Positions 914 through 45,419 of a stretch of DNA of 64,000 nucleotides are shown piece by piece. The stretch is from Clostridia bacterium (GTDB lineage: Bacteria; Bacillota; Clostridia; TANB77; CAG-508). The first letter of the stretch is position 1. Each line of letters begins with the position of its first letter. A program made the translations under genes and the position numbers. The stretch spans positions 28,171-92,170 of the forward strand of contig JAFTFU010000002.1 in the NCBI GenBank assembly GCA_017458285.1, given 5' to 3'. The notes beneath the pieces are model-generated. The model ran no database searches. It was not told where the DNA came from and worked only from the letters and a program-made list of their open reading frames with translations.

Positions 914-1948
914 TTAATTAAAAGTAAACAATCCAGTGTAAGTAGGAAGTACAAGTCCCATTCCAATAAGTGTCTGAACTTGAAAATCAATAGTCATATC
1001 ATTGTTCTTCTTGCCTGTAGTGTCCATGTCTGACCTTGTGTCACCAATAACCTCCAGTTTAATAGGTTTAGTATCGCCGCCAAGAATAAAGAGTTGAGAA
1101 TCATTAAGTGCAAGATTAAATGTACCAGACTGAAGCGTTTGAGGAATAACCATAAGTTTATTACCTTCCCACTCACCGATAGAACCTGTAGCTGCTTTTG
1201 CCTCTTTCTGAGAGTTAGAGAACATCTTGTCAGGAACGATACCAGCGAGTTTTCTTAAAGCACCTTTAGTACCAGCAATAGTAAGACTTGCATAACCACC
1301 AGCAGCGGCTACTTTATCACAAAGACCGCCAACAGCAGCTTCGGAGTTTCCGTTTGAAGAGAAATCAGAAGGAATAGCATTGGCAACATTTTGGAACTGT
1401 GCATAAAGTCTATCCTGTATATATTTATTAATTGAAAGATAAACTTTATCAATCAGTTTCTCCAAAGGTGTAATGCCAATAAGGAATCTTTCAAGCTCCT
1501 CATAAACATGAATATAAATCCACTCTTTAGGAAGTGTAATCTCAGAACCAAGATCAATAGCTTGTCTATTAGTGTCCCAGTGGTTACCGGCGAATGTTGC
1601 AACAGAAAGCAAGCCACCTTCAGAATAAAAAGCAGACTTATCGCCCAATGCTCTATTCTTAACCTCCACAAAAGAGTCAATAAAAGGAGATTCAAGAACG
1701 TTATCGCCGATAGTGACATTTACAATCTCCTCAATAATCTCAAACATTACGATATTATTACGTCTAAATGCCTGATAAAGAGTTTTCCCTTTAAGAATGT
1801 CCTCTTGAATAGTTTTTCTCAAATAATTTTCAAGGTCTTTCTTTGTAACCTTTTCATTATCAATATGTGCAGAATAATCATTCCTTGCAAGGTCAAGAGC
1901 AAGGTCAAATACTTGCTGTTCTTGCTGTGTAAAATTAGTATATGCCAT
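914..1948 (-). CDS. Major capsid protein
   Basis: This 344-residue protein is probably the main shell subunit of the head, with an HK97-type fold. Evidence is its place after portal, protease/scaffold and decoration genes, and its typical make-up: a helical N-terminus (MAYTNFTQQEQQVF), a central region rich in Ala/Gly, and a beta-rich C-terminal half ending TYTGLFTFN. The start has a strong AAAGGAG-type site. It shares its first residues, MAYT, with the upstream decoration gene. I recall that SPbeta-like phages have a capsid gene in the same position. Assignment rests on synteny and composition, not on a signature motif. Confidence 0.8.
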   Translation of the reverse strand: MAYTNFTQQEQQVFDLALDLARNDYSAHIDNEKVTKKDLENYLRKTIQEDILKGKTLYQAFRRNNIVMFEIIEEIVNVTIGDNVLESPFIDSFVEVKNRALGDKSAFYSEGGLLSVATFAGNHWDTNRQAIDLGSEITLPKEWIYIHVYEELERFLIGITPLEKLIDKVYLSINKYIQDRLYAQFQNVANAIPSDFSSNGNSEAAVGGLCDKVAAAGGYASLTIAGTKGALRKLAGIVPDKMFSNSQKEAKAATGSIGEWEGNKLMVIPQTLQSGTFNLALNDSQLFILGGDTKPIKLEVIGDTRSDMDTTGKKNNDMTIDFQVQTLIGMGLVLPTYTGLFTFN

Positions 1949-1971: not shown

Positions 1972-2547
1972 TTATACGGTTACATCTGTAATTTTAATTT
2001 CATATATATCCGTCTTACTACCGTATGTATGTGCAGCAGTTACAAGAGTAGCACCAGATATACGCTTACGCATAACCTGACCAACAACTACACCAGATGA
2101 AGGTTTAGTAGTAGCGGCAACAAGTTTACCTGTTGTACTATCAATAGATGTATATACGGCGGTTGTAGTAAAGTCTGTAACAGTAGTAACGACAGACTGG
2201 GTAGCAGATGTCACGCCATCAATAGAAATACCAAATTCATCATTTTTCTTTACTACTCTTACTCTAAATCTTGTGCCAGCAGGAATAATATAGTTATCCC
2301 TACGCTGATTTGTAATTCTACTTGTATCTTCAGTCCATGCAGGATTATCTACTACAACAATATCACCAATTTTAAGACCTGATTTTGTACCAGCCTTAAA
2401 GTTATATGTATTAGATTCACCAGTTGCAAGACCGTCAAGATAACCAAATGTACCATTTTCAATATCTGTAGTTGCAACAGCATCAAAAATTCTTTCCGCA
2501 TAACGTGTGCTACCAAGGTTTACGCTTTCAAAAACTGTATATGCCAT
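1972..2547 (-). CDS. Probable capsid decoration or head-stabilising protein
   Basis: The 191-residue product is almost entirely predicted beta strand, with many Thr, Val, Ser and Gly residues and no cysteine. Its N-terminal part (FESVNLGSTRYAERIFDA) is typical of head-associated proteins encoded between scaffold and major capsid genes. A GGAGGAG ribosome-binding site precedes the ATG. Gaps to both neighbours are about 20 bases, so it is co-transcribed with them. A decoration role is inferred from position and composition; a minor capsid protein is the alternative. Confidence 0.55.
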   Translation of the reverse strand: MAYTVFESVNLGSTRYAERIFDAVATTDIENGTFGYLDGLATGESNTYNFKAGTKSGLKIGDIVVVDNPAWTEDTSRITNQRRDNYIIPAGTRFRVRVVKKNDEFGISIDGVTSATQSVVTTVTDFTTTAVYTSIDSTTGKLVAATTKPSSGVVVGQVMRKRISGATLVTAAHTYGSKTDIYEIKITDVTV

Positions 2548-2568: not shown

Positions 2569-3360
2569 TTATTCGCCGACAGGAATGTTACCGTATTTTG
2601 TAACAACAAATTTACTGTCAGTAGTATCATCATCCATAATTCCTAACTTAACTGAATCATTTTTACTGAAATTTGTTCCCATATTTTGCTTACCAAAAAT
2701 TGCATAACATTTTACTTCAATATCAGAAACAGTCATATCTTCTAAAAGACCTTTTTCAAAATTGTCTTTTAAAGAAATAAAATCAGCATTATCTTTTAAT
2801 GCTGATTCAAATTTTGTAAATATTTGATTTTTCTCAGCTATTTCCGCAGTTTTGTTTCTTACCTGTTCATCTTGAACATAAGCATCATACTTGATTTTCA
2901 TATCATCATATTTCGCTTTTATAGCAATATAATCTTTTTGTACGGCAGTACAATCATTTTGTACAGCTGTATAATCAGCCTGTATGTCTGCGACCTTTTG
3001 ATTTGCTTCTTCGACTTTCTGAAATGCTTTATCTTCAATTTGAGTAATATCAGCGCCAATATCAAAAACAGTTTCAGAAGATTGTGTACCATCTACATAA
3101 TCTTCATAAACTATTTTCTTTCTTTTAGCGGATTCAAAATTAACAATAGGTTTATCACCATCTACTGTATAAGGACAGCCGTAAAATCCATAATTCTTTC
3201 TATCACGAACAATTACTTCGCTGTCTTGAATATCTACTAAACGATAACGAGAGATAGAATCACCCCATCTATCTGTTATCATTTCACTTTGAGAAACAAT
3301 ATTGCCAATATCTTCAAATTGTTCTATTGTAGTCTGAAAGTCTGTATTAGAATTAGACAT
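2569..3360 (-). CDS. Internally started scaffold protein, nested in the protease gene
   Basis: Inside the protease-scaffold frame an AAGGAGGT ribosome-binding site lies 8 bases before an in-frame ATG (MSNSNTDFQTTIEQ). This would give a separate 263-residue protein made only of the coiled-coil scaffold half. The arrangement parallels the nested protease and scaffold genes C and Nu3 of phage lambda. The consensus strength of this internal site, better than the one for the full-length protein, is the main evidence. Separate translation is inferred. Confidence 0.65.
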   Translation of the reverse strand: MSNSNTDFQTTIEQFEDIGNIVSQSEMITDRWGDSISRYRLVDIQDSEVIVRDRKNYGFYGCPYTVDGDKPIVNFESAKRKKIVYEDYVDGTQSSETVFDIGADITQIEDKAFQKVEEANQKVADIQADYTAVQNDCTAVQKDYIAIKAKYDDMKIKYDAYVQDEQVRNKTAEIAEKNQIFTKFESALKDNADFISLKDNFEKGLLEDMTVSDIEVKCYAIFGKQNMGTNFSKNDSVKLGIMDDDTTDSKFVVTKYGNIPVGE

Positions 3361-4110
3361 TTTTTCATTACCTCCTTGCGTAAAATCAGTGTTTTGACTT
3401 TGTGTTGAATTAGAATTTATTTTTGCAAATTCCGTGTATTTATTATTCAATTCATCTTGTATTTTCTTTATAAAATCTGATACAGTAAATTGAACTTCAA
3501 CAGTTGAGTTAATCATTGCAGGACTATATTTGTCGCCTAAAATACAAGCAGCTCTAAATGAAAACTTTGTAAAATGGAACAATCCATTTTCATCCTCATA
3601 TCCATCATAGGAATCTTCATCATCCCATAATTCCATAGAATGAGATTTAATAATATCTCTTTTCATTATTTCTGAGCTATCTTCAAACATATCCCACATT
3701 ATACCATCAACGACTAAAAATGTTCTTGTCTCACCATCATCACATAATCTTTCCTCGTAATGTGCATTATTATCTTCAGATGATAAAATAACACCATAAG
3801 CTGAACCAACATATTTATGTTCAATCCCATTTTCAGTTTTTACGATAATATATCTATGGTCAGAAAAATCGTTTGTATCTTTATCATCTTTACTCCCATT
3901 ATCTTCTACGAAGCCAACAATAGGTACATATTGTAAAGTAGGAATAGCTTTATCAACTACTTCTTTTTCAAAAACTGAACCGTTAAAGTTCTGACCAAGA
4001 TGTAAAAGCCATATTTTTACTTTGATAAATCTTTTACTTTCGTCATTTATATCATCTATCTTTTGAAACATTACAGGAAGTGATAATTTTGACTTGACTT
4101 TTACTGACAT
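2569..4110 (-). CDS. Prohead protease fused to scaffold
   Basis: The 513-residue protein has an N-terminal capsid-maturation protease domain of about 220 residues. The sequence KSHSMELWDDE at about 150-160 gives the His-Ser core seen in phage serine proteases. A linker follows, then a scaffold-like region with a coiled coil at about 340-430 (repeats such as ADYTAVQNDCTAVQKD). The protease would cleave the scaffold and capsid precursors during head assembly. It lies between portal and decoration genes, as expected. A strong internal start at residue 251 probably also gives the scaffold alone. Confidence 0.8.
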   Translation of the reverse strand: MSVKVKSKLSLPVMFQKIDDINDESKRFIKVKIWLLHLGQNFNGSVFEKEVVDKAIPTLQYVPIVGFVEDNGSKDDKDTNDFSDHRYIIVKTENGIEHKYVGSAYGVILSSEDNNAHYEERLCDDGETRTFLVVDGIMWDMFEDSSEIMKRDIIKSHSMELWDDEDSYDGYEDENGLFHFTKFSFRAACILGDKYSPAMINSTVEVQFTVSDFIKKIQDELNNKYTEFAKINSNSTQSQNTDFTQGGNEKMSNSNTDFQTTIEQFEDIGNIVSQSEMITDRWGDSISRYRLVDIQDSEVIVRDRKNYGFYGCPYTVDGDKPIVNFESAKRKKIVYEDYVDGTQSSETVFDIGADITQIEDKAFQKVEEANQKVADIQADYTAVQNDCTAVQKDYIAIKAKYDDMKIKYDAYVQDEQVRNKTAEIAEKNQIFTKFESALKDNADFISLKDNFEKGLLEDMTVSDIEVKCYAIFGKQNMGTNFSKNDSVKLGIMDDDTTDSKFVVTKYGNIPVGE

Positions 4111-4122
4111 ACCATCACCGCC

Positions 4123-5664
4123 TTACATATTATTTTTATCTCCATCAACACTCTTTTCACCTTCATCAGATAATGGTTTGCCTACCGAATCATTTGTAGG
4201 TCTGCCAGTCTGACTCGAAGAATTATAAGAAGAATTGAGGGGAACAAAGTTATTTTTAAAATCAAAAATATCTTTATGCAAAATATAAGACCCCATCGTT
4301 CTTGATGGAGTCATGTCTAATGTTGCTAACCATTTATCAATAACCGTTGCACCTAAAGTACAAGCCTCCTTGTATCGTTTAGAAACATTATCTCTATTAA
4401 AAATTGTAATATCCAATAGATAAAAATTGAACTTATATGTTTTTTTGTTATATCCTTTTAATTTAATATAACGATTGCACCATCGTTCTAATTGTCTATA
4501 AATATTGTAAATAAAAGCAGAATCATTTTCTATAGAATACGTAACTGCTGTAGCTGAAGCAGAACCATTAAACAATTCCTTGGTTTCGCCGGAGCTATTG
4601 TATAATTCATCAACTGCATCAGATACATTATTCCGAGTATTAGCAGAATCTTTAAAACTTATAGCTTGACCCGTAGAACCCAATGTATGTATTAAACCAA
4701 TATCATCACTCATATTCTCTTTGTTAATCTCTGCAAATATTCGCAATGTATCGGGTGTCAGTAAAGGCTTGTCAACCATTTTTTCATCAATAGGAACTTT
4801 CACCATAATTGCCTTATAGTTATCAGTTCTTGCTGATTGTAGTTTTAATTGTTTATAAACATCGACATCTAAAATATCTTTAATCAAATTAATTAAAACA
4901 GGGAATGGGTAAGACCATTGATTGTTAAACTTTATACAGATCTGTTTATCTGAGGGTGGCAAATACCATTTATCAATTATGTCTTTTTTGTAATCATTGT
5001 ATGCCTGTTGTACATAATCAGGATAAGCAGATAGTTTATCTTTGTTTATAGCAGATAAGTTTATTATAAAATTATATAATCCATCGTCGATTTGATATAA
5101 TTTACAAATATTATAATTTATCTCTTGATAATAAAAAGTATTATCATTTTCTACAACTAAACCACAATAAATATCTTGATAAGGCAATACTCTTACTATT
5201 TTTGAAAATTCATGTTTAATATTCATATTTTCAAATTTTGATGCGATAGCATTATAAGCTGTTTTAACAGTTTTAATATTTGCTTTATGTGAAATATCAT
5301 ATAAGTCTATCCACCAACAAAATAAAGCCATATTACCATATAACATATTTAATCTATAATAATGAGGCGAACTGTGCATTAACATTCTTGATACCGATAA
5401 TAATACTTTCCAATAATGCTTTGGATATTTTATGGCAGTTAAAATTGTATCTAACTTATATTCTCCCAAACAACCAGTTTCTAATATATTGGTATTTAAA
5501 CATAAATCATTTATCATCAATCTTCTAAAAGAGCTATAATCAATATTATTATTTTTTATTGAATCATTGAATCTTTGTTCATCTTTTTTGTAGTCTTCTT
5601 TAGAGTAAATAGTTCGATATTGATATTGTTTTTGTTTACTTTCTTTCTTAGATTTTTTGCCCAT
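4123..5664 (-). CDS. Portal protein
   Basis: This 513-residue protein is the likely portal, the ring at one head vertex through which DNA enters. It sits between large terminase and the protease, the canonical place. It has a basic N-terminus (MGKKSKKESKQK), a central alpha/beta region with aromatic-rich strands, a long helix-rich middle, and a polar tail ending DGEKSVDGDKNNM. I start it at the ATG at 5664, nine bases after GAGGTG; a GTG four codons earlier is part of that ribosome-binding site. No catalytic motif is expected in this family. Confidence 0.78.
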   Translation of the reverse strand: MGKKSKKESKQKQYQYRTIYSKEDYKKDEQRFNDSIKNNNIDYSSFRRLMINDLCLNTNILETGCLGEYKLDTILTAIKYPKHYWKVLLSVSRMLMHSSPHYYRLNMLYGNMALFCWWIDLYDISHKANIKTVKTAYNAIASKFENMNIKHEFSKIVRVLPYQDIYCGLVVENDNTFYYQEINYNICKLYQIDDGLYNFIINLSAINKDKLSAYPDYVQQAYNDYKKDIIDKWYLPPSDKQICIKFNNQWSYPFPVLINLIKDILDVDVYKQLKLQSARTDNYKAIMVKVPIDEKMVDKPLLTPDTLRIFAEINKENMSDDIGLIHTLGSTGQAISFKDSANTRNNVSDAVDELYNSSGETKELFNGSASATAVTYSIENDSAFIYNIYRQLERWCNRYIKLKGYNKKTYKFNFYLLDITIFNRDNVSKRYKEACTLGATVIDKWLATLDMTPSRTMGSYILHKDIFDFKNNFVPLNSSYNSSSQTGRPTNDSVGKPLSDEGEKSVDGDKNNM

Positions 5665-5683
5665 AACACAATTCACCTCAATT

Positions 5684-7582
5684 CTAATATATTTTAGGTT
5701 TGCGATTTAATTGCCTTAACCCTTTAGCATAATTCCTCATTGTATAATCATGCGGTAGTTTTTTAAACAATTCTTTTTCTATTTGTCTTTGCACCCAATA
5801 ATTATACGCAGCAGAACTATATCTATCTTTTCTCGCACCTGATTTTTCCTTTATCTGAATTTGCGTACCTACAACTTTATGCTGTAAACCTACTAATTCT
5901 CTGACGAACAAATCTGTGTTGATATATGGTAATTGCAAGGACAATCTATCACTTGGTATCATTTTATTATAACCTTTAAAGTTATCTTTTAATATTTCTT
6001 CACTTTCATCTTTAGAAACTAATAAATTAATTTTATTATTTTGAATACCTGTTCGCAGTTGAGTACATAATTCTGTGTTTAAACTATCATACGCTTGTAT
6101 AGCCCATATTACCTTCTGTGCATTTTGTTGAGCAAACGACTCATTCAAATCCTTATTCTTTTTTAAAACATCAGTTTCGTAACAAGCTAATGCTGGATAT
6201 ACTATTCCTGTATGGGTATCAATTAAATCTTTCATCAATTCTTGTACAATAGGCAATCCTAAACCTCCAGCATCTATTGCTAAATCAGTTGCTTTAAAAT
6301 AATCAAATAGTATTCTTATTTTTAATGCCAAATCACTACCGATAATTCCCTCTATGCTTGTTAAATAAACAAAATTTCCAATATATGTATTTCTATTTGT
6401 AGGTATAGCACGATTTAAAATAATAGAACTTGCATCGTTTTTATGCCTTGTAGAAGCCATCAATGCAATATCTACCGATAATATTCTTCTTTCGTTTAAC
6501 AATAAATCGGGTATAGCAGGAATAACTAAATTTTTAGACAAGTCATTTTTAAAATAATAAGGTATTTCAATTTTTCGTATGTTTAACAAATCATCATAAT
6601 CAAAGAAAGCACCATCTGAGTCTCCAAAAAACAACCCTTCCATTTCAATAGAAAATTTTATTTCGTCAAAATCATCTTCGCTCATTTCATCTTGTATTTG
6701 TTCTCTCGATAATAAATTATTTTTAATTGCGATTTGATATGGTAGATCGCAAACAAAGTATTTTTTATCATCTCTTAACATATTTTTAAAATACGTTCGT
6801 GCTTTTGTGAAAGACCAGTGACTTTTATAATAAGCCGAGCCTGTATATATTTCTTTGTTTCTTTCTTGTAAATGTGCGTATTCTGGTAAATCTAAATATG
6901 CTGGATGTCTTGGTGCTGTTAAAAATCTACGCAATACAGTGTTGATTGTATTCAAATCTAACATCCAAAATTCATCAATAAAAAGAATATTTGCTCTTGC
7001 ACCTCTGGCTGTATCAGATGGTGTAACGACTTTAATCCAAGAACCATTTGCAAATTGTATTTCAGCTTTGTTTTCACCAACAACAGAATACGTTATTTCT
7101 TTCCGTAGATTTTCCGAACCCCATCCATAGTTCTTCATTAAATCTTCTGTTATCTTTAACAACATTTCATTTCCTTGCCTTCTTGTACTTGCAGCAACTA
7201 CTATTTTAGTATGTGGAAATAAAATAGCATAAGTACAAGCACATATACTATCAAGAAATGTTTTACCTTGCCCCCTACTGGCGATATATAGACTATAGTT
7301 GTTATGTAAAAATTCCCATAACAATACCTTTTGAAAATTCTTTAAATTAATATTAAGATAATGCTCCACAAAGAGATGCGGATTTGCTCTAAATATCCCC
7401 ACAAATTTAGCAATCTTTTTTAAAAATTCTAAATACTTATCATTTATTTGAATAGTCTTGTGTTTTTCTATTGCCTCATTAACACTATTATCTTTGTCAT
7501 AATCCTCATAATCATTATCAGAAACATTTCTATCTAAAACCACGCCATCATCTATGTTTTTAATATTCATTTCGTCAATCAT
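5684..7582 (-). CDS. terL: Terminase large subunit
   Basis: This 632-residue protein is the packaging motor and headful nuclease. The ATPase Walker A is SRGQGKT at about 102-108 and Walker B is ILFIDEF at about 199-205, followed by the coupling-type segment LTAPRHPAY. The C-terminal nuclease domain has acidic residues in ILSVDIAL and LAIDAGGLG and ends with the KDRYSSAAYNYW segment seen in this family. The ATG at 7582 is chosen; a GTG overlapping the upstream stop at 7594 is possible. It overlaps or abuts its partner gene, consistent with translational coupling. Confidence 0.93.
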   Translation of the reverse strand: MIDEMNIKNIDDGVVLDRNVSDNDYEDYDKDNSVNEAIEKHKTIQINDKYLEFLKKIAKFVGIFRANPHLFVEHYLNINLKNFQKVLLWEFLHNNYSLYIASRGQGKTFLDSICACTYAILFPHTKIVVAASTRRQGNEMLLKITEDLMKNYGWGSENLRKEITYSVVGENKAEIQFANGSWIKVVTPSDTARGARANILFIDEFWMLDLNTINTVLRRFLTAPRHPAYLDLPEYAHLQERNKEIYTGSAYYKSHWSFTKARTYFKNMLRDDKKYFVCDLPYQIAIKNNLLSREQIQDEMSEDDFDEIKFSIEMEGLFFGDSDGAFFDYDDLLNIRKIEIPYYFKNDLSKNLVIPAIPDLLLNERRILSVDIALMASTRHKNDASSIILNRAIPTNRNTYIGNFVYLTSIEGIIGSDLALKIRILFDYFKATDLAIDAGGLGLPIVQELMKDLIDTHTGIVYPALACYETDVLKKNKDLNESFAQQNAQKVIWAIQAYDSLNTELCTQLRTGIQNNKINLLVSKDESEEILKDNFKGYNKMIPSDRLSLQLPYINTDLFVRELVGLQHKVVGTQIQIKEKSGARKDRYSSAAYNYWVQRQIEKELFKKLPHDYTMRNYAKGLRQLNRKPKIY

Positions 7583-7593
7583 AATATCGCCCA

Positions 7594-8703
7594 CTACTCT
7601 TCAGAATTGGAGTTGCCGCCTATACCACCAAAAATGTTATCAAATGATGTTTCCGAATCATAATCATCTTCATATTGTGGTTTATTAACAGTAAATTGTT
7701 TCATTAGTTTAGAGTATGTTTCAGAATAAAAGTTCTGTATTCCGACCGCTTTGCAAGTATGTCCTCTTATAAATCCATCTAATTCGCCTATATGATCTAT
7801 ATCAGCCAAATGTCCTTGTGGCGTAGGAATAGGTTTTAAAATTGTATCTTCCCATATTTCTGCCATTTCACCCAATGTGCGTTTATCGGTAGATAAAATA
7901 TCGTTTTCTTTACTTTGTTTCGGCTGTAATTTACCTGTGTCAAGCAAATCTTTAAATGTCCTATCTAAGTCTTTTGTATCTTCACCAGCGATATTAGCTT
8001 TATGTGCTTTCCATCTATTAAAACATATTGCCTTAAATACTTCTTCTTGTGCTTTAGTCTGACATTCATGCCGAGAAGTCCAATCGTCATATTCGTTTTG
8101 TAAAAACACATAATCGTCTGAATTAAGACCACTACCAAAAAACTTACTTGCTTTAGTAACAATAGCTTCTTGATTAAAATCATCATCATTAAAACTCGAC
8201 ATTAGTTTTTGTTTTTTTTTTATATCTTGATAATCTTTAAAAATTGTATCATTGTAATCTTTGGTTTTATATTGAAGTAATTTAACATGACGAAAATAAT
8301 AAGGCATAAAACTCAATTCATTTTTTGAATTATCATTCTTTTTGGTAAATTCTGTCATTGCATTTTCATACAAATCATCTGAATAATATAAATCAAATGA
8401 CATACATATTCGTTGTGTTGCTTTTTTGTCAGGATTTTTATACTCTCTATTTTGACATTCTTTTAAGTATTCATCATATATTTTATTAATACAATCTTTA
8501 CAATACGGCAATTTACCTTTTGCTTTGTATAAAATACTATCAGAATCATAGTATTCATTTATATCATTATCCTCGCCACAACAAGCACAAGACATCATAA
8601 TCTTTGCTGTTTTGTCTTTGGGAGGTCTACCTCTTGGTCTTGGGTTGGATTGCACATCAGAAAGTGATATATCAATTTTAGGTGGTCTACCTCTTTTACT
8701 CAT
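7594..8703 (-). CDS. AT-hook and zinc-finger protein, candidate small terminase
   Basis: This 369-residue protein lies immediately upstream of large terminase, the usual place for the DNA-recognising small terminase. The N-terminus carries two AT-hook-like motifs (GRPPK at about 5 and 26) that could bind the minor groove of AT-rich DNA. A zinc-ribbon follows (CACC at 39-42 and CKDC at about 68-71). The remainder is helical and charged, ending in an acidic and glycine-rich tail. No ordinary helix-turn-helix small terminase is visible nearby. Function is inferred from position and DNA-binding motifs. Confidence 0.6.
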   Translation of the reverse strand: MSKRGRPPKIDISLSDVQSNPRPRGRPPKDKTAKIMMSCACCGEDNDINEYYDSDSILYKAKGKLPYCKDCINKIYDEYLKECQNREYKNPDKKATQRICMSFDLYYSDDLYENAMTEFTKKNDNSKNELSFMPYYFRHVKLLQYKTKDYNDTIFKDYQDIKKKQKLMSSFNDDDFNQEAIVTKASKFFGSGLNSDDYVFLQNEYDDWTSRHECQTKAQEEVFKAICFNRWKAHKANIAGEDTKDLDRTFKDLLDTGKLQPKQSKENDILSTDKRTLGEMAEIWEDTILKPIPTPQGHLADIDHIGELDGFIRGHTCKAVGIQNFYSETYSKLMKQFTVNKPQYEDDYDSETSFDNIFGGIGGNSNSEE

Positions 8704-8734: not shown

Positions 8735-10144
8735 TCATTTATTCATTTGTACCCTATTAGATTTAATGGGTGTGTAAATAACATCCGTTAAACCATCCTC
8801 AATATCAAAAATAAATGTTTTACATTGTCGTTTAGAAGAATACCCATTGTCTGTAGTCCACTTAGACTTTGCGCTAATAGTGGGTAATCTTTGTATTCGC
8901 ATATTAAACTCTTCCATTAAAACATTCTCAGTATGTAAATGTTGTAAAAACACCTCTGTTGTATCAACATCTGACCAATACTCTCTCGCTTCGTCTGCAA
9001 TGAGCATAGGTAATTTCTTAACATTTGCATCATGAGCAAAGCATAATAATGTTTTGCCGAATTTCATATACTTTCTTGCAAGCGGTAAATAATCAACATT
9101 TATCGTATTATCGTTTCTGTACCACGCATCAATAAACTTTGCTATCTTAAAACCAGTTTGTTCATCATGATTAGCAGGAACGTATATTACTTTTACTTTA
9201 GCTTTTTGACTTAATATATCAATAGCTTTGATTAACATATCACAACATCTTTCATAAGCATCATAATAATGAATATCGCAATCCTGTGCCGTGCCTTTGG
9301 TTGTCGTATTCTGTATGCTATCATTATTCAGCATATCACCGCCTATAATAAAAACTATTTCATTAAATTTATAATTGTTCGTTCTTGTGACTATATCTTC
9401 AATAACATAGGAAAACAAATCTTCCGCAATATCACAATCATATTCGTTTCCTGTTGTTAGCATTGAAGCTTGCAAATTCATATGTAAATCAGCTATATTT
9501 ATCAAAAGCAATTTATCGCCTTGTAAATAATCATTTCTTTCTTTAATCTTAGGCAAAGAGTAATTTCTATCTAATTTATCAAAAACTTCTTCTATCTTTG
9601 AAAGCGAAATATTATTATCCTGTATAGGTTTAACTGTCAAATAACTTGCATAGAGAGTAACAATACCATCTTGCTTACTTATAACTTGACGAATGGTATT
9701 TCTTGCACTTGATATTTGCCATAATGAACTGTCAAACCCATGAGCTTTTAAAAGATATTCGGGATCTTTACTATCATTTTCAGTCATTTCTAATAGTTTA
9801 CTGCTTGATAACGAGCCATCTTTGTTAATAGATACTTCACAGCCAAAACGCTTTTGAATATCATCAATTTTATTCTCTTGCTTGTGTTCATCACTTTGGT
9901 TATTTGTATTATTATTTTTTAATGAATTTTTGTGTTTCAAGTATTCATAAATAAAATAACCACCAAAAATCGTACCATTCGCTTTTCTGAGACTGTCGGT
10001 TGATATAGGTAATTGATATTGGTTGCATATTTCAGACCAATCTAAATCAATGTCACCATTCTTTTTATTAATAATAGTTCGCAAACATTCTTCGTATTGT
10101 TCTGCTGACAAGTCATATTGTTCCAATTCTTTTAAAATATCCAT
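8735..10144 (-). CDS. Calcineurin-like metallophosphoesterase
   Basis: The C-terminal 260 residues hold the full metal-binding set of this family: DLH at about 218, GGD at 266, NHDE at 321, a histidine in FAHD at about 370 and the HLH pair at about 400. The first 200 residues are helical and may bind DNA or a partner. Such enzymes (Mre11/SbcD-like or nucleotide phosphatases) process DNA ends or nucleotides. It precedes the terminase genes, as I recall for yonJ in SPbeta. Substrate cannot be read from the sequence. Confidence 0.8.
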   Translation of the reverse strand: MDILKELEQYDLSAEQYEECLRTIINKKNGDIDLDWSEICNQYQLPISTDSLRKANGTIFGGYFIYEYLKHKNSLKNNNTNNQSDEHKQENKIDDIQKRFGCEVSINKDGSLSSSKLLEMTENDSKDPEYLLKAHGFDSSLWQISSARNTIRQVISKQDGIVTLYASYLTVKPIQDNNISLSKIEEVFDKLDRNYSLPKIKERNDYLQGDKLLLINIADLHMNLQASMLTTGNEYDCDIAEDLFSYVIEDIVTRTNNYKFNEIVFIIGGDMLNNDSIQNTTTKGTAQDCDIHYYDAYERCCDMLIKAIDILSQKAKVKVIYVPANHDEQTGFKIAKFIDAWYRNDNTINVDYLPLARKYMKFGKTLLCFAHDANVKKLPMLIADEAREYWSDVDTTEVFLQHLHTENVLMEEFNMRIQRLPTISAKSKWTTDNGYSSKRQCKTFIFDIEDGLTDVIYTPIKSNRVQMNK

Positions 10145-10180: not shown

Positions 10181-10259
10181 GGTTATTGGTAGGGCGACGT
10201 ATCCTACATTTCGGATACCTTTCCGGATGTATCGGAAACCATTTCCGCTCTCAATAACC
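10181..10259 (-). ncRNA. Structured RNA with competing hairpins
   Basis: This 79-base stretch is closed by an 8-bp stem, GGTTATTG with CAATAACC. Read on the minus strand, TTTCCG can pair either with an upstream CGGAAA (loop TGG) or with a downstream CGGAAA (7-base loop). The following GTATCC can pair with the preceding GATAC or with the later GGATAC. Such alternative pairing resembles an attenuator or riboswitch, or a degenerate tRNA-sized RNA. It lies between tRNA-Met and the phosphoesterase gene. No known riboswitch class is recognised. Confidence 0.4.
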
Positions 10260-10265
10260 TAATAA

Positions 10266-10301
10266 GGCACAGTGACAGACTATAAAGCCTACCGCTGTGC
10301 C
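10266..10301 (-). other. Hairpin GGCACAG/CTGTGCC
   Basis: A 7-bp perfect stem, GGCACAG with CTGTGCC, encloses 22 bases just upstream of the structured element at 10181-10259. There is no adjacent T-tract, so it is not a simple terminator. It may be part of the same structured leader or a processing site next to the tRNA. Confidence 0.4.
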
Positions 10302-10354: not shown

Positions 10355-10430
10355 TGGGTGCAGAGGCAAGACTTGAACTTGCAATCTTCAGGATATGAAC
10401 CTGCCGAGCTACCATTGCTACTACTCTGCA
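10355..10430 (-). tRNA. tRNA-Met (anticodon CAT)
   Basis: The 76-base gene reads TGCAGAG at the 5' end, pairing with CTCTGCA, and the CCA end is encoded. The anticodon loop TTCATAT lies between CAGG and CCTG, giving CAT. The T-arm is GCAAG-TTCAAGT-CTTGC, canonical. The D-arm is weak (AGC/GCT with a GG in the loop). It sits alone in the late operon between the HU-like and phosphoesterase genes. CAT could also be an Ile isoacceptor with modified C34, but the body looks like an elongator Met tRNA. Confidence 0.88.
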
Positions 10431-10469: not shown

Positions 10470-10512
10470 AATAAAAAATTAAAGCTGCGACTTACCACAG
10501 TCACAGCTTTAA
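10470..10512 (-). terminator. Intrinsic terminator after the HU-like gene
   Basis: On the minus strand a stem of AAAGCTG-x-GACT paired with AGTC-x-CAGCTTT is followed by a T-rich run (TTAATTTTTTATT). This is a standard rho-independent terminator placed about 100 bases after the stop of the HU-like gene. Transcripts of tRNA-Met and the structural genes would therefore need read-through or their own promoter. Confidence 0.75.
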
Positions 10513-10617
10513 CATAATAAAAGAAAGGTGTTAAAATATGAATATTATATATAAACAGCTATTGCTGTTCATACCAAAAAATAAATAAATTAAGTATAGG
10601 ACTCACTCGTAATCCTA

Positions 10618-10947
10618 CTATTTGGAATTTAGTTTTTGACAATATGTTCTGGTGATATTAACTTTTGGTTTAATTCTACTTGATATAGTCATTTGCTTAC
10701 CAGTTAAATTATTAACCTTTGTTTGCTCAGGTGCATATTCACCTTGAATCGTCATACCTTCAAACAACTTGATTTTTATATTTTGCTCATTTGTTGTCAT
10801 AGATAAATATTGTCTTATATTATTTTCCAGTTCATTATAAATCATACGAATAGTATCTATGTCATATAATCTACCATTCTTTGCTATATCTCTTATAAGT
10901 TTGTCTTTTGTAATTGTAATTGTTTTTGTAGTTATTTCATTATTCAA
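10618..10947 (-). CDS. HU/IHF-like DNA-binding protein
   Basis: The 109-residue protein matches the histone-like HU pattern: an N-terminal helical part (KLIRDIAKNG...IYNELENNI), then strands LFEGMTIQGEY, the arm region with NLTGKQMTI, and the basic end KVNITRTYCQKLNSK. HU proteins bend DNA and can help recombination, packaging or transcription. It directly follows the RNA polymerase gene; I recall yonN (HU-like) next to yonO in SPbeta. The start is TTG at 10947, nine bases after AGAGGTG. Sequence is divergent, so the fold call is good but not certain. Confidence 0.7.
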   Translation of the reverse strand: MNNEITTKTITITKDKLIRDIAKNGRLYDIDTIRMIYNELENNIRQYLSMTTNEQNIKIKLFEGMTIQGEYAPEQTKVNNLTGKQMTISSRIKPKVNITRTYCQKLNSK

Positions 10948-11102: not shown

Positions 11103-14051
11103 TTATTTCTCTTGTGAACTACTTAATTCCTTCCTTTTTAAATACGCACGTTTGTTTTGTTCTTTTCGCAATATTTTATTATGAACTTCATTACACTTAT
11201 TGCATCTACAAGTTTGATTATCTTTATTCTTTATTTCAAACCAATCACCACAATCAATACATTGAATTACTTTTGTTATTTGTCTCTTGTGTTTTGATAA
11301 ATTTTCATATAATACATTTCCATAGCAAGTCCATAATAAATCTTTATACTTACTGTCTTTTATACCATATAAATACTTAACAAGAATATCAGCAACTTCT
11401 CTATCTGAATATCCAAACTGCGATAATTCATTAGTAATGTCATTTATTATTGTCTGATATTTAGCCTTTTGACGTGTTTCAGTTTGCAATAAAGCATCTC
11501 TTGGTATAGTTTGCGAATCCATAGTATGTATTTTGCCAAAATATAATTTAGCTTTTTCAATATACTTTAATACAACAGGATTTGTACCTTCAATCAATCT
11601 ACCATTATCTGCTTTGCATATTTGAAATTCAATATCAGGATTACTCATTAATAATTTATAATCAGGTTTAGGCAATTTTTTTGATTTATGATTTTTAGTA
11701 TATTTACAACTTATTCTCGGATTTGGTATTAAAGAATTAAGTTTATTGACAAAACTATTGTTTATAGATACTGTTTGTTCATCAGACTTATCTTTAGCAT
11801 ATTTAAAAAAATAGGGGAGAAGATTATTTGTAAAAGATGTTATTTGTTGTTTAACCTGTTGTGGGAACTCAGGTTTATAAAGTGTTTTTGCGTAATCCAC
11901 AATGTAATTATTTTGACAACATAATCTTTTAATACAATCTATTGTTTGTTTTTTTTGCTCATCATTTCCATAAATAAAAACATCATCATTCCATATTTTA
12001 GAAATGTTATTACTATAAATTCCTATATTACCACCTGTAAATGCAGTAATTAAACCATTATAAATATTCTCATCATTTATCAAAGATGGTTTTGCCTTTT
12101 TCATTTCATAATATAATGGCACAATATTAAATTTTCTTATATTTCGTTCAGCCACATCTATTATGGCTTTGTCTGATACTACAAGCGATTTATCTCCGTC
12201 AACATCGAACTGGAGAACTTTACTTATCATATCACTGCTACTTGTATATAAAGCATTAGTACAAAACCATTCTCTTATTTTCTCTTGTCTTTCGTTTTTA
12301 TTACAAGCAATATTATTCCTAATACAATGTTCCATAAATAAATGCGGCGAACGTAAACAGTCTAACTTATCATTTAATCTAAACAGCCAACAAAACACTT
12401 CACCATCTTTTAACAATCCTCGTGGTGTTTCTATTCCCATAAACCAATGTTCGCAGGCAGCATAAAAATCAGGAAGAATAAAAGTGTATTTACCTTTGAC
12501 CTGTAATTTACCTGATTTATATTTTTTTATCAAACTATCCTTTATATCTTTTAATTTAATTCTGATATATACGTCATTAAGCAATTCAGGATAAATCTCA
12601 ATAGCCTTCTGAAATGAAGTCTTATATAGATTATAAGGTGTAACGCCAAATACATTTTTAATATTATCAACTGAGGAACAAAGATTGTTTAATTTATCAA
12701 TAGAAGATTTTGCGATTTGATATATTTCCTCATCTGTAATATCAGTTAAACTTTGAAGCATTTGATAATTGATAGTTGCATCTTTAATTCGTTCTTCTTC
12801 CGGATTGGTATAATTAGCAGAACAACGATATTGTTTAAAATATTCTTTGTACTGTTCCCAATTACAGTAATACGAATTAAACTTAAACTGACTTTTTGTA
12901 AATATAACTTGTATATCTTCTTTTATAATATCGTGTTCTACACCATATATATCTTTTATTATAGATGAACATTTATTGTCTTTTATAAATTTTACAAAAT
13001 CAAACACTCCAAGAAGTCCTTTAACAAATGGCATCCTCGCCATCTTATTACATTGCTTAACACCAAAAGCATTTGGTAATATCATTCCTGCACCGTCAGT
13101 ATGTGTTATAGGTATATAGTCTTTTTTTCGTGTAATCGAAAAATCTGCATCATCTATAAAATCAAACTCACCATAAACATTGGTTTCAAAATCATCTATG
13201 ACTATTGTTTTATCTATATCAAATTCTGTCCATTCATCTGTTGCACTATTGATTAAGGCAAGATAACTAAGATACTTATTAGAATTGCAACCGCCTTGTC
13301 TATTTATCTCATCAACAGTCAAACCACACATTAAAGTTTTTTCATATTTCTTCCATACGCTTTCTTTGATAAATATACATTTTTTTGTTCTTATCTGTCC
13401 AGCTGAAGAAGTAAAGTAAATATATTTTTCACCTTTATATTTATAGCCATTAAATAGAATATCTCTTAATATATCAAAATAATATATTTGGATAACCATA
13501 AAATCATTAGTTAATTCATTTGGTTTAGCACCGATTGTTCTTGTAAAAGCTGATTCAAAGAAAGATATAATCTTCACATTTTTATCATTTAGTTGTCTTA
13601 TATGGTCTTTGCCTTTTGTTTTTATATTATAATCTGCTTTATTCTGTAAAAGTTTAAGCAGTTGATTTTTTATATCTTTAATCTTTTTTGTTTTTAATTC
13701 TACAATTCTTTTAAGTTTAACATATTGACCAGTTAATTCTAAAATTTCTTTTGCATTATCTTTATTATCATCATTAAAAGTCATAAAAAAACTATTATCT
13801 GATTCTGCCTGTTTATAAACAGACAATAAATCTTTTTTAGACAGACCATATTCATATAATTGCCTTTCGATATTTTTAAGCCCTACATAAGTTCGTTTAC
13901 CTTTACTATGAAAGTTTTTATATACCCCACCTTTAAGCAACTGTTTGCGTTCCATTCTAATCTGATGATTAAGTTTATGTAGATACGCTTCGTGATTACT
14001 ATAAAAATCACCTGTATCAGCAGCGTATATTTGAATTTGAGAATCAAGCAA
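11103..14051 (-). CDS. YonO-like single-chain DNA-directed RNA polymerase
   Basis: This protein of about 982 residues shows two hallmarks of the two-barrel RNA polymerases of SPbeta YonO type. One is HTDGAGMILP near residue 314. The other is the metal-binding FDVDGDKS near residue 612, preceded by LRSPHLFMEH. A C-terminal zinc finger follows (CIDC and CRCNKC at about 930-955). In SPbeta such an enzyme transcribes late genes without host subunits. The start is taken as TTG at 14051, four bases after TAGGTGAT; a GTG at 14060 overlaps the upstream stop. It lies upstream of the HU-like, packaging and capsid genes on the same strand, matching a late-transcription role. Length is close to YonO (about 900 residues). 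Confidence 0.82.
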   Translation of the reverse strand: MLDSQIQIYAADTGDFYSNHEAYLHKLNHQIRMERKQLLKGGVYKNFHSKGKRTYVGLKNIERQLYEYGLSKKDLLSVYKQAESDNSFFMTFNDDNKDNAKEILELTGQYVKLKRIVELKTKKIKDIKNQLLKLLQNKADYNIKTKGKDHIRQLNDKNVKIISFFESAFTRTIGAKPNELTNDFMVIQIYYFDILRDILFNGYKYKGEKYIYFTSSAGQIRTKKCIFIKESVWKKYEKTLMCGLTVDEINRQGGCNSNKYLSYLALINSATDEWTEFDIDKTIVIDDFETNVYGEFDFIDDADFSITRKKDYIPITHTDGAGMILPNAFGVKQCNKMARMPFVKGLLGVFDFVKFIKDNKCSSIIKDIYGVEHDIIKEDIQVIFTKSQFKFNSYYCNWEQYKEYFKQYRCSANYTNPEEERIKDATINYQMLQSLTDITDEEIYQIAKSSIDKLNNLCSSVDNIKNVFGVTPYNLYKTSFQKAIEIYPELLNDVYIRIKLKDIKDSLIKKYKSGKLQVKGKYTFILPDFYAACEHWFMGIETPRGLLKDGEVFCWLFRLNDKLDCLRSPHLFMEHCIRNNIACNKNERQEKIREWFCTNALYTSSSDMISKVLQFDVDGDKSLVVSDKAIIDVAERNIRKFNIVPLYYEMKKAKPSLINDENIYNGLITAFTGGNIGIYSNNISKIWNDDVFIYGNDEQKKQTIDCIKRLCCQNNYIVDYAKTLYKPEFPQQVKQQITSFTNNLLPYFFKYAKDKSDEQTVSINNSFVNKLNSLIPNPRISCKYTKNHKSKKLPKPDYKLLMSNPDIEFQICKADNGRLIEGTNPVVLKYIEKAKLYFGKIHTMDSQTIPRDALLQTETRQKAKYQTIINDITNELSQFGYSDREVADILVKYLYGIKDSKYKDLLWTCYGNVLYENLSKHKRQITKVIQCIDCGDWFEIKNKDNQTCRCNKCNEVHNKILRKEQNKRAYLKRKELSSSQEK

Positions 14052-14056
14052 TATAA

Positions 14057-14998
14057 TCACCTACTTTTTGATATTCTATTATTTTGATTTTTAATTCTCT
14101 GTATTAATGTCGTAACACCACACATAGGATACCATGTTTTAATATAATCAATGCATTTATCATACTGCTTATTAGGCGTACACTCTGTTCTGCTACTTAA
14201 AATTCCTTTTCTTTTCATTTCTTTGTATAATTCATTTTTAAATCCTATAATATACTTTAAATTATTCTTGTCTGAATAATCTACAATATCTTGTAAGACA
14301 TATAAAACTCTATTATGAATTGTATTTTTTATTACATCATGTTGAAATGTAGTTATTTCATCACAAGGATTAATTTGTCTAAAATCATGTTCAACATCAA
14401 CAATACTATTAAGATTTATATTATCTACTGTATTTTTCGCCCAATCAATTATTAGTTGTAAGCTATCAATATATTGTTGTTTAGTTTGTTTATCAAATAA
14501 ATCTAACTCATTTGATAACAAATAATACTCACTTTGACGTTGTATGAAATCTTTACAGTTAATACAAAATTGTATAGCCTGTTTTTTAAATTTATTATGC
14601 CATTCCAATAAAATAGCATTATGAATAGGATTACTATAATCATTAAAATATTTCTTATCTCGTATTCTTATTAGTTCATTAAATCTATTATCAATTTTAC
14701 TGTCATATAAATTTCGACAAGACGACATATTCATCATAATCATATCTTCGATAATATCATCATCGTTATCATAAATTTTAACATCTACCATAACAATATC
14801 TTTCCCTAATTCTTTGCAAGCTCTAACTCGCTGGTGTCCTGACACGATTACCTTATCCTGCGTGATAACAATAGGCTCGATAACTCCACTTGTTTTGATT
14901 GACTCTAAAAACTCCTGCCATTTGTCACCCGACATATCATCAAAAAATTCTGAATTTCTTGGATGAGGTTTCAGCTCCTCAATTTTCATTAACTGCAT
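14057..14998 (-). CDS. ParB/Srx-domain protein
   Basis: The first 100 residues are a ParB-type N-terminal domain: LKPHPRNSEFF, then IVISGHQR-type sequence (VIVSGHQRVRACKELG) and the strand VDVKIYDND. ParB folds bind or hydrolyse CTP or act as nucleases. The C-terminal 200 residues are helical and not recognised. The ATG at 14998 is used because AAAGGTG sits six bases before it. The stop overlaps the RNA polymerase start, so the two are co-translated. A role as DNA-binding partner of the polymerase is possible but inferred only from adjacency. Confidence 0.75.
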   Translation of the reverse strand: MQLMKIEELKPHPRNSEFFDDMSGDKWQEFLESIKTSGVIEPIVITQDKVIVSGHQRVRACKELGKDIVMVDVKIYDNDDDIIEDMIMMNMSSCRNLYDSKIDNRFNELIRIRDKKYFNDYSNPIHNAILLEWHNKFKKQAIQFCINCKDFIQRQSEYYLLSNELDLFDKQTKQQYIDSLQLIIDWAKNTVDNINLNSIVDVEHDFRQINPCDEITTFQHDVIKNTIHNRVLYVLQDIVDYSDKNNLKYIIGFKNELYKEMKRKGILSSRTECTPNKQYDKCIDYIKTWYPMCGVTTLIQRIKNQNNRISKSR

Positions 14999-15026
14999 AT
15001 TTTTCACCTTTCTTTATTACATTATT

Positions 15027-22707: not shown

Positions 22708-23310
22708 ATGGGACAGCGTTCACAGATTTATGTTAGATACGAGGGAAAGTTGATTATTGCCAGATATTATCAATGGAATTATGGAGAGCGTATGATAAGT
22801 CGTGCAAGATATGGGATCGAACATATCAAGTGTGATATTGATGAAGGTTATACTTTTTGTTTTACTACAGAACGCTATATTAACCGTTATATCCATATCT
22901 TTGATACAAATTTTGATATGAAGGATGTAGCGATTAGTACGGATATCTTCAAAGAGTTTGAAGAATGGAAAGTCGAAGAACCCGAACTTGATTTCAAACA
23001 ATATTGTTTTACGTATCAAGATAACAATGACGGAAAACTTCTAATTGATATATCAGGGAAAACTATAAAATATGCTTTCCTTGACAGTGAAACAGACATT
23101 AAACATATTATGTCAGCAAGACAATATATGGCTTGGGATAGCATAAATTGGAGGCACTCCAAATATATTGGTGCTGCTGGAATCCGTGCTTGCAAAGATA
23201 ATATTCAGTCTATTAATTCAATGGCAAGACTTATGACAGAGCAAGAGGTTATAGATTTTCTGCAAACTGATGATTATTTTGGAAAATCACAATCAGAATT
23301 AATGTTTTAA
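22708..23310 (+). CDS. Hypothetical conserved phage-type protein
   Basis: A 200-residue product begins MGQRSQIYVRYEGKLIIARYY after TTAGGAGG. Proteins with this start are, as I recall, frequent and uncharacterised in phages and mobile elements of Clostridia. It is rich in Arg, Tyr and Trp. No catalytic motif stands out. Confidence 0.6.
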   Translation: MGQRSQIYVRYEGKLIIARYYQWNYGERMISRARYGIEHIKCDIDEGYTFCFTTERYINRYIHIFDTNFDMKDVAISTDIFKEFEEWKVEEPELDFKQYCFTYQDNNDGKLLIDISGKTIKYAFLDSETDIKHIMSARQYMAWDSINWRHSKYIGAAGIRACKDNIQSINSMARLMTEQEVIDFLQTDDYFGKSQSELMF

Positions 23311-32650: not shown

Positions 32651-32723
32651 GTGTTCGTAACTCAGTTGGTAGAGTATCTGACTTTTAATCAGAGAGTCGG
32701 GAGTTCGAGTCTCCTCGGACACA
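32651..32723 (+). tRNA. tRNA-Lys (anticodon TTT)
   Basis: The acceptor GTGTTCG pairs with CGGACAC (one G-T pair). The D-arm contains AGTTGGTAGA, the anticodon arm is CTGA-CTTTTAA-TCAG, and the T-arm contains GGGAGTTCGAGTCTCC. The CCA end is not encoded. Confidence 0.95.
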
Positions 32724-32731
32724 CTACATAA

Positions 32732-32806
32732 TGCGGTATGTGTGTAATGGCAGCACATCAGACTTTGACTCTGAGAGTACAGGTTCGAGTCCTGTTACCG
32801 CAGCCA
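32732..32806 (+). tRNA. tRNA-Gln (anticodon TTG)
   Basis: The acceptor TGCGGTA pairs with TACCGCA, followed by G and an encoded CCA. The anticodon arm is CAGA-CTTTGAC-TCTG and the T-arm ACAGG-TTCGAGT-CCTGT. All stems are sound. Confidence 0.95.
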
Positions 32807-32811
32807 AATAT

Positions 32812-32899
32812 GGAGGTATGGCGAAATAGGAAGTACGCTACAGACTTAAAATCTGTTGGTAGAAATACCGTGTGGGTTCAAGTCCCACTACCTCCACCA
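32812..32899 (+). tRNA. tRNA-Leu (anticodon TAA), first copy
   Basis: A class II tRNA with acceptor GGAGGTA/TACCTCC and encoded CCA. The anticodon arm is CAGA-CTTAAAA-TCTG, a long variable arm GGTAGAAATACC follows, and the T-arm is GTGGG-TTCAAGT-CCCAC. Confidence 0.94.
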
Positions 32900-32937
32900 A
32901 TTACAACAATACATTTATATACCTCCTTTTTCTTTAA

Positions 32938-33015
32938 GACAAATCGGAAAGACGGTTGACAAATTGGAAAGACAGTTTGACAAATTGGAAAGACAGTTTG
33001 ACAGCTCGGAAAGAC
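32938..33015 (+). repeat. Tandem 20-21-bp repeats between two tRNA-Leu genes
   Basis: Units of GACAAATTGGAAAGACAGTT occur three times (20, 21 and 21 bases), followed by a partial, diverged copy. The array lies exactly between the two tRNA-Leu genes. It is non-coding and could be slippage-prone spacer or protein-binding iterons. Confidence 0.8.
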
Positions 33016-33025
33016 GAGCAAATAC

Positions 33026-33109
33026 GCTGGTGTGGCGAAATCGGCAGACGCAAGGGACTTAAAATCCCTCGGTAGCAATACCGTACCGGTTCAAATCCGG
33101 TCACCAGCA
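33026..33109 (+). tRNA. tRNA-Leu (anticodon TAA), second copy
   Basis: A class II tRNA with acceptor GCTGGTG/CACCAGC. The anticodon arm is GGGA-CTTAAAA-TCCC, the variable arm CGGTAGCAATACCG, and the T-arm ACCGG-TTCAAAT-CCGGT. CCA is not encoded. Its body differs clearly from the first tRNA-Leu although the anticodon is the same, so the two have separate origins. Confidence 0.94.
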
Positions 33110-33164
33110 CTCTACTTTGATAGAAAAATAAAACAAAACACAATGAAAGGAAAGCCAAAATATA

Positions 33165-44480: not shown

Positions 44481-45419
44481 ATGAAACAAAAACATTATAT
44501 GAATATTGAAAGATTAAAACCTGATTATGCGGATGGTTTTAGAGTAGGAGATAAAATTGTAGTGCAGGAAAAGGTTGATGGAGCTAATGCCTCTATTAGA
44601 TACGATAAAGAAACAAATATGATTAAAGCCTTTTCGAGGAAAAAAAAATTGGATTGTATGAATAATTTACGAGGATTTTATGAATGGTCACAAAAATTGG
44701 ACATTGAAAAAGTTAAATCCGTTCTTGGAGATAATCTCTGTTTGTTTGGAGAGTGGCTTGTACTTCATTCTGTTGTATATCCTAAAGAAAGATATAATAA
44801 TTTCTATTGTTATGATATTTATGATACAGATGTGCACAAGTATTTAACGCAAGATAATGTAAAACAAAAGGTTGCCGAATTGGGCTTGATTTATGTTCCA
44901 GTATTTTACGAAGGTAACTTTATATCGTGGGAACATATTAAATCATTTGTTGGCAGAACTAATTTAGGCGGCGAATATGGTGAAGGGGTGGTTATAAAGA
45001 ATGAATCACGATTAAATGACCCAAATAATCATAAGCCTTTTTATGTAAAGATTGTAGGAGAGAAATTCTGCGAAACAAAAGGACATAAGAGAAACAAGAC
45101 TATTGATACAGATAAACTTATGGAAAGAGAAAGACAACAAGAATTAGCCGAATCTATTGTTACTGAAGCAAGAGTAAGAAAGTTATTGCATAAAATGGTT
45201 GATGATGGGACTATAAGAGAAAATTGGGATAATCACGATATGGGAACGATAGCAAAAAATTTAGGTAGAGCAATACATGATGATTGTATTAAAGAAGAAG
45301 CAGCCACAGTCAATGAAATTGGTAGCGGATTTGGAAAGATTGCTTCTTCTATTTCTATGAAAATTGCAAGACAAATATTAGAAGAAAAATGCAATGAGGA
45401 TTTACATTATATTTCTTGA
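44481..45419 (+). CDS. Rnl2-like RNA ligase
   Basis: The 312-residue protein has the nucleotidyltransferase motifs of RNA ligases: adenylated Lys in EKVDGAN at about 30-36, FSRKKK at about 51, FGEW at about 92, EGVVIKN at about 168 and YVKIV at about 188. The C-terminal 100 residues are helical. It joins RNA ends, probably repairing tRNAs cut by host defence nucleases; no partner polynucleotide kinase is seen in the window. AGGAGTG precedes the ATG. Confidence 0.88.
   Translation: MKQKHYMNIERLKPDYADGFRVGDKIVVQEKVDGANASIRYDKETNMIKAFSRKKKLDCMNNLRGFYEWSQKLDIEKVKSVLGDNLCLFGEWLVLHSVVYPKERYNNFYCYDIYDTDVHKYLTQDNVKQKVAELGLIYVPVFYEGNFISWEHIKSFVGRTNLGGEYGEGVVIKNESRLNDPNNHKPFYVKIVGEKFCETKGHKRNKTIDTDKLMERERQQELAESIVTEARVRKLLHKMVDDGTIRENWDNHDMGTIAKNLGRAIHDDCIKEEAATVNEIGSGFGKIASSISMKIARQILEEKCNEDLHYIS

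Follow-up and report, generated by a model that had tools for sequence, protein, structure and literature searches.

A new member of the YonO RNA polymerase family within an SPbeta-type phage late module

To our knowledge, YonO of phage SPbeta is the sole enzyme of its group that has been studied in the test tube. It is a proven DNA-dependent RNA polymerase required for late genes and for plaque formation, a mutant in its catalytic triad is dead, and the enzyme is reported to pause little (PMC5467207). Its start site was mapped to position 2225998 of Bacillus subtilis 168, a site that precedes yonK and an RNA lacking annotation, with the promoter left open by its discoverers (PMC5467207). The eukaryotic RNA-dependent RNA polymerases (PF05183) belong to the same two-double-psi-barrel superfamily but act on RNA templates (PMC5467207, PMC7824862).

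In this study, we examine a 64,000-nucleotide stretch of DNA (the window), for which a YonO-type polymerase gene within an SPbeta-like late module had been predicted from the sequence. A new YonO member in a module of this type is confirmed as an observation, and its interpretation is supported by comparison with SPbeta and with other loci. The protein-coding part of the module comprises the following features.

14057..15007, minus strand: ParB-N-domain protein (PF02195, E 2.4e-7)
11103..14060, minus strand: predicted yonO-type single-chain DNA-dependent RNA polymerase (reading frame, Pfam, PHROG, BLAST, alignment)
10618..10947, minus strand: HU-like DNA-binding protein, yonN position (PF00216, Bac_DNA_binding, E 2.2e-5; phrog_379)
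8735..10144, minus strand: yonJ-like exonuclease/phosphoesterase (phrog_704, phrog_284)
7594..8703, minus strand: yonG homologue (BLAST, 31% identity to SPbeta YonG)
5684..7594, minus strand: terminase large subunit, yonF homologue (41% identity to SPbeta YonF)
4123..5676, minus strand: portal protein, yonE position (phrog_2739, as the SPbeta counterpart)
2569..4110, minus strand: yonD position, product without assigned function (phrog_3313, as the SPbeta counterpart)
1972..2547, minus strand: yonC position, by position alone (phrog_4147; SPbeta YonC is phrog_12284)
914..1948, minus strand: putative major capsid protein, yonB position, by position alone (phrog_4088; SPbeta YonB is phrog_12438)

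The yonO reading frame is uninterrupted over 985 codons when counted from its GTG, a start that would place the first 4 bases of the gene within the ParB-N gene. An in-frame TTG at 14051, the start in the original prediction, is better spaced than the GTG from the ribosome site AGTAGGTG, and the proteins of relatives begin with MLDKQ, in agreement with the TTG, which is probably the likelier start of the two. ParB-like genes also occur in five other loci (L005, L009, L011, L036 and L123), at distances from just 5' of yonO to about 4.5 kb upstream.

The encoded protein matches PHROG 8308, to which SPbeta YonO is also assigned, over residues 6-962 (E 1.9e-227), and in a BLAST alignment to SPbeta YonO its residues 152-956 are identical at 361 of 814 columns (44%). 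Residues 1-151 lie outside the BLAST alignment, though the PHROG match still covers them from residue 6 onwards, and the window protein is 146 residues longer than SPbeta YonO. It also exceeds the cut-off of the Pfam family RdRP (PF05183; 39 bits against 23.8), with the strongest match over residues 191-558; among 38 YonO family members, 26 attain E 0.001 against this profile and 12 fall short of it. The phage collection contains 37 records that match the window protein, 23 of them covering at least 80% of the query. A profile search, suggested with the original prediction, thus returned as its best match the family that contains SPbeta YonO; Pfam and NCBIfam scans yielded no unrelated family above its cut-off, the RdRP match falling in the same superfamily. 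Matches among PDB sequences, obtained with the single protein and with a 38-member profile, were taken as chance (the best was an annexin, E 0.005); the profile found no RNA polymerase catalytic chain there, which is expected at such distance and lends no support.

The two sequence signatures and the C-terminal zinc finger on which the polymerase call had been based are real features of the family. HTDGAG occupies residues 320-325 and FDVDGD residues 618-623, and in an alignment with 38 relatives, picked by us from the fetched loci, D619, D621, G622, D623, D322, G323 and G325 are invariant, while the finger cysteines C934, C937, C953 and C956 are conserved at 90% or more. These strings are therefore not chance occurrences. 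SPbeta YonO has the corresponding DxDGD triad and four-cysteine finger (PMC5467207), and FDVDGD is, by this analogy, the predicted catalytic aspartate motif.

The name of the Pfam family, together with database records (H22, H27, H31 and H32) that label homologues as RNA-dependent RNA polymerases, would fit an enzyme working on RNA, either as an RNA-dependent RNA polymerase or in RNA priming or repair, and not on late genes. We hold this to be very improbable, since SPbeta YonO, the homologue with 44% identity that has been characterised, shows a strong preference for DNA templates and is needed for late-gene transcription (PMC5467207), and since yonO is placed ahead of packaging and head genes. 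The reading that we prefer is that the gene encodes a YonO-type polymerase which would transcribe the late operon as one unit from the interval between HU and yonJ (probability about 0.92). The enzyme would be made early, together with the HU-like protein, and would bind DNA with the FDVDGD aspartates holding the catalytic metal. Transcription would begin in the HU-yonJ interval, as with SPbeta YonO, and would continue as one long unit through the exonuclease, terminase, portal, head and later genes; the 5' part of the transcript would form an RNA platform, represented in the window by a tRNA-Met and a skipping-rope RNA. Late timing and independence from the host core polymerase are extrapolated from SPbeta (PMC5467207).

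The order yonO, HU, yonJ, yonG, yonF, yonE, yonD lies on one strand in the window and is common to SPbeta, to the Psychrobacillus phage Perkons and to viral contigs. Seven of nine late genes (yonO, N, J, G, F, E and D) belong to PHROG families shared by the window and SPbeta. Direct BLAST at E 1e-3 links YonO, YonG and YonF to their SPbeta counterparts, and HU, YonJ, YonE and YonD are tied to theirs through the common PHROG families. For the proteins at the yonC and yonB positions, no BLAST match to SPbeta YonC or YonB was found at E up to 10; position is the same and size similar, and the PHROGs differ. The gaps of the window module hold no counterparts, of at least 70 codons, of yonK, yonI and yonH, which lie in between in SPbeta. 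In Perkons, ORF215 (MT325768) shows 43% identity to the window protein, with the same gene order.

This comparison bears out most of the gene assignments made earlier: an HU-like gene does lie beside yonO, the phosphoesterase is the yonJ-like gene with its exonuclease PHROGs, and PHROG matches confirm the terminase and portal. A protease label finds no support: the portal and putative capsid genes are separated by two genes whose PHROG matches (3313 and 4147) carry no function; the Pfam scan covered the first of the two, and the yonD-position protein shows a further weak PmgS-like match (E 0.005). The capsid assignment at 914-1948 stands by position, and its family (PHROG 4088) carries no function that would back it. 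Descent shared with SPbeta, as proposed, is supported by the match of gene order and families to both SPbeta and Perkons.

The window lies in a contig of 167,151 bases (C48) within a 2.36-Mb assembly. The sequence of this contig recurs 109,317 bases further on, with 0 mismatches over the 42,853 bases compared. We therefore take the phage to be a molecule of about 109 kb, closed or circularly permuted, although a concatemer assembly would look identical. Because the phage assembled as its own molecule, the host different from that of SPbeta that had been proposed is no more than a possibility. A yonO-type gene like that of the window was found in 1 of 94 genomes searched, namely the window's own assembly. 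The phage encodes its own DNA polymerase III alpha and an integrase gene (phrog_216), for which tyrosine recombinase profile matches fall under the cut-off. An RNA ligase PHROG match lies at window positions 44481-45419.

For wider comparison, loci were drawn from viral sequences (80 of 298) and bacterial genomes (80 of 139). The set analysed comprised 172 sequences, 169 with a YonO match, which reduced to 134 that are not near-identical, the window and SPbeta included. Sequence of at least 7.5 kb 3' of yonO was available for 95 of the deduplicated loci; in these, an HU homologue follows in 68, yonJ in 60, yonG in 43 and yonF in 39. Neither yonJ nor yonF lies 3' of yonO in 31 of the 95. After HU, two of these 31 (L104 and L139) encode a virion structural protein of phrog_2729 next to a member of phrog_4051, and L104 also has an endolysin gene there, so that the yonO-HU pair precedes late modules of more than one kind. 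The yonO gene itself can be interrupted. In L013, L014, L048, L049 and L051 the break falls within a conserved stretch, at codon 722 or close to it; L072, L114, L166 and several SPbeta-group phages likewise have a split yonO. An Rfam scan for an intron in the split yonO of L013, L014, L048 and L051 found none. Upstream of yonO, on the minus strand, L026 carries two pistol ribozymes and a twister ribozyme (3577-4045 and 863-922).

Like SPbeta, the window has an RNA-bearing interval before yonJ. In the window this HU-yonJ gap spans 473 bases and includes a tRNA, whereas the SPbeta gap, at about 1.9 kb, accommodates yonK and a long leader RNA; Perkons has a gap without tRNA. The window interval contains the following features.

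10545..10569, minus strand: dyad AACAGC-aata-GCTGTT followed by TATATATAA, a candidate late promoter or regulator site
10538..10588, plus strand: antisense mini-ORF encoding 16 aa behind ribosome site AAGAAAGG (with a counterpart in each of the 16 clade loci)
10478..10513, minus strand: terminator-like hairpin of 15 pairs followed by a T run (the first among 7 listed when 8 kb were scanned)
10355..10430, minus strand: tRNA-Met (cat) (Rfam)
10266..10301, minus strand: GC-rich hairpin in the leader
10181..10259, minus strand: skipping-rope RNA (RF02924, E 4.4e-12, 57.7 bits, gathering cut-off 36.7)

Of the 134 loci, the 71 in which no more than 7 kb separates yonO from yonJ or yonK were used to count tRNAs, and 63 were omitted. 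Interval tRNAs occur in 29 of the 71 loci (71 tRNAs in total), tRNAs beyond yonJ or yonK in 12 (77 tRNAs), and one or the other in 37, leaving 34 with tRNAs in neither place. All 148 counted tRNAs lie on the late strand, and across 435,794 bases upstream of yonO in the loci compared no tRNA was found 5' of the gene. Density is 0.57 tRNAs per kb in the gap against 0.095 in the flanks, figures drawn from related loci that are not independent, so that the p-value computed for this difference is too favourable. Loci L056, L063-L065, L070, L073 and L134 have repeats like GTTGTTCAACG in the yonO-yonJ gap after the yonO stop, and 1 to 19 tRNAs beyond yonJ or yonK. The first gap tRNA of L025 is called by ARAGORN as tRNA-Pyl type, and so is possibly stop-reading.

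Rfam was run at gathering cut-offs on 46 intervals, viral contigs apart from the window and SPbeta; the window was searched by E-value, with both hits above cut-off. It found tRNA in 27 intervals and other RNA families in 9, all on the late strand. Skipping-rope RNA appears in five (the window, L043, L061, L086 and L092), and DUF3800-I (L038), DUF3800-VIII (SPbeta), ROOL (L009) and drum (L026) in a single interval each. The public annotation of phage Goe14 places skipping-rope and DUF3800-VIII RNAs inside the HU-yonJ interval, hence their presence there is not new. ROOL, a giant RNA that forms cages, and GOLLD RNAs occur in phages and prophages, often close to tRNA islands, and have no known function (PMC12286853); in the available text of that paper the phrase "RNA polymerase" is absent. 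Within the open-licence literature, we found no paper naming both YonO and ROOL, and the accessible portions of papers on YonO, tRNA and phage (PMC7824862, PMC7481178) make no link from YonO to phage tRNAs.

Skipping-rope RNA might be expected to track YonO, an idea not borne out by a reverse search. This RNA was present in 14 of 199 genomes searched, one being the window's own assembly (contig C24), and none of the 14 stretches around it (5.6 to 19.9 kb, several of them short contigs; 13 from other genomes) contained YonO or its late genes, which three control loci did show in the same comparison. ROOL was found in 0 of the 199 genomes, in a run without a positive control that is hence uninformative.

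The absence of YonO from those 14 stretches would suit a different origin for the interval RNAs, which the host polymerase may make, from promoters of their own or by read-through from yonO-HU, the interval then being a hot spot for cargo with no functional link to YonO. The tRNA content of relatives varies widely, tRNAs are missing from the gaps of SPbeta and Perkons, and gap tRNAs are absent from 42 of the 71 loci. Furthermore, four more tRNAs (Lys, Gln, Leu, Leu) form a second group in the window at 32651-33110 on the plus strand, 18.6 kb upstream of yonO; farther out and on the opposite strand, this group presents a different picture from the sequence near yonO and indicates that tRNA genes also lie outside the late operon. 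Against synthesis by the host stand the restriction of all counted tRNAs to the late strand, their absence upstream of yonO in the loci compared, and the position of hairpins before the first gap tRNA. We give the host polymerase somewhat less than an even chance.

These hairpins were scored in the 35 of 134 loci with an interval tRNA. A terminator-like hairpin lies within 70 bases 5' of the first interval tRNA in 22 of the 35, compared with 0.9 expected from shuffles and with 11 of 47 in the same test before later tRNAs. The end of the hairpin is 2-8 bases from the first tRNA in 17 of those 22. Where the terminator abuts the tRNA in this way, no space is left between them for a host promoter, and we infer that the late transcript would start upstream and run through the hairpin. 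The window falls outside the 22, with 47 bases from hairpin to tRNA and the first arm beyond 70 bases. A conserved long hairpin near GGTGGCGGTGCTGCTATTCTAGCAGTATCGTCAT was also seen just 5' of the first tRNA in L009, L011, L032, L036, L046, L100 and L123, with more distant forms in L008 and L045; it is perhaps an undescribed RNA element. Taken over the family, synthesis of the recurrent RNA platform by YonO seems to us to stand at even odds.

A candidate for the start of such a transcript is the dyad that follows HU. The pattern CAGnn-loop-nnCTG followed by TTTATATA or similar, at most 110 bases past the HU stop, is present in 11 of 16 clade loci including the window, against a chance expectation of 0.05 loci (from 14 matches to the pattern in the 514,614 strand-bases outside that interval); the pattern was derived from the same clade loci on which it was scored, so that this is not an independent test. 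Its stem bases co-vary on both sides (CAGTG/CACTG, CAGCG/CGCTG, CAGCA/TGCTG), and none of the remaining 118 loci has a site for the pattern within 2.5 kb after yonO. At 10571-10544, a sigma-70-like match coincides in part with the window dyad; such matches number 56 in 8 kb against a shuffle mean of 59. From its sequence, the dyad together with TATATA is a candidate late promoter, though a doubtful one.

A different block, CTTCTTTTCATTCAT...CCTTTCTT, was considered as a promoter and dropped, as in every one of the 16 loci its opposite strand reads as a ribosome site with an ATG. In leave-one-out searches at width 18 the block came top in 11 of the 16 clade loci, and at width 24 in 10; the ranks of the window were 84 and 75, respectively. 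The antisense ribosome site and ATG are present in all 16 clade loci compared with 0.74 in shuffles, in 0 of 16 on the sense strand and in 5 of 117 other loci; in the HU-tRNA interval they often read ATGAATGAAAAGAAG. The frame of the mini-ORF that follows is closed, at 4-24 aa, in 15 of the 16 and open in L026. The 16 clade loci had been picked for showing the block, and six of the 22 listed were excluded (L049, L072, L095, L097, L101 and L106); neither mini-ORF nor dyad was found in any of those six.

The mapped SPbeta start offers a further point of comparison. Bacillus genome G129, which we take to be strain 168, matches the SPbeta interval at 100% over coordinates 2225094-2227496. If this identity holds, the start falls at position 23197 of the SPbeta locus (L003), 383 bases past the HU stop and, by eye, some ten bases after a weak dyad. 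A by-eye alignment of the window sequence ATAATATTCAT with the SPbeta start was dropped, since the SPbeta sequence can form an RNA stem arm; the fold of that 5'-transcript stem is weak (z -1.85). The full account, in which the polymerase of this family makes phage tRNAs and the skipping-rope, DUF3800, drum and (at one locus) ROOL RNAs as the head of the late transcript, past a host-type terminator and starting, in the clade, at the dyad and TTTATATATA after HU, strikes us as unlikely.

The roughly 70 loci that share these neighbour genes are diverse and provide comparative material for a search for YonO promoters, and the recurring platform of tRNAs and structured RNAs links several phage RNA families without known function to the late operon. 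If the full account held, the polymerase responsible for the platform RNAs would thereby be named and a first candidate for a YonO promoter would be in hand.
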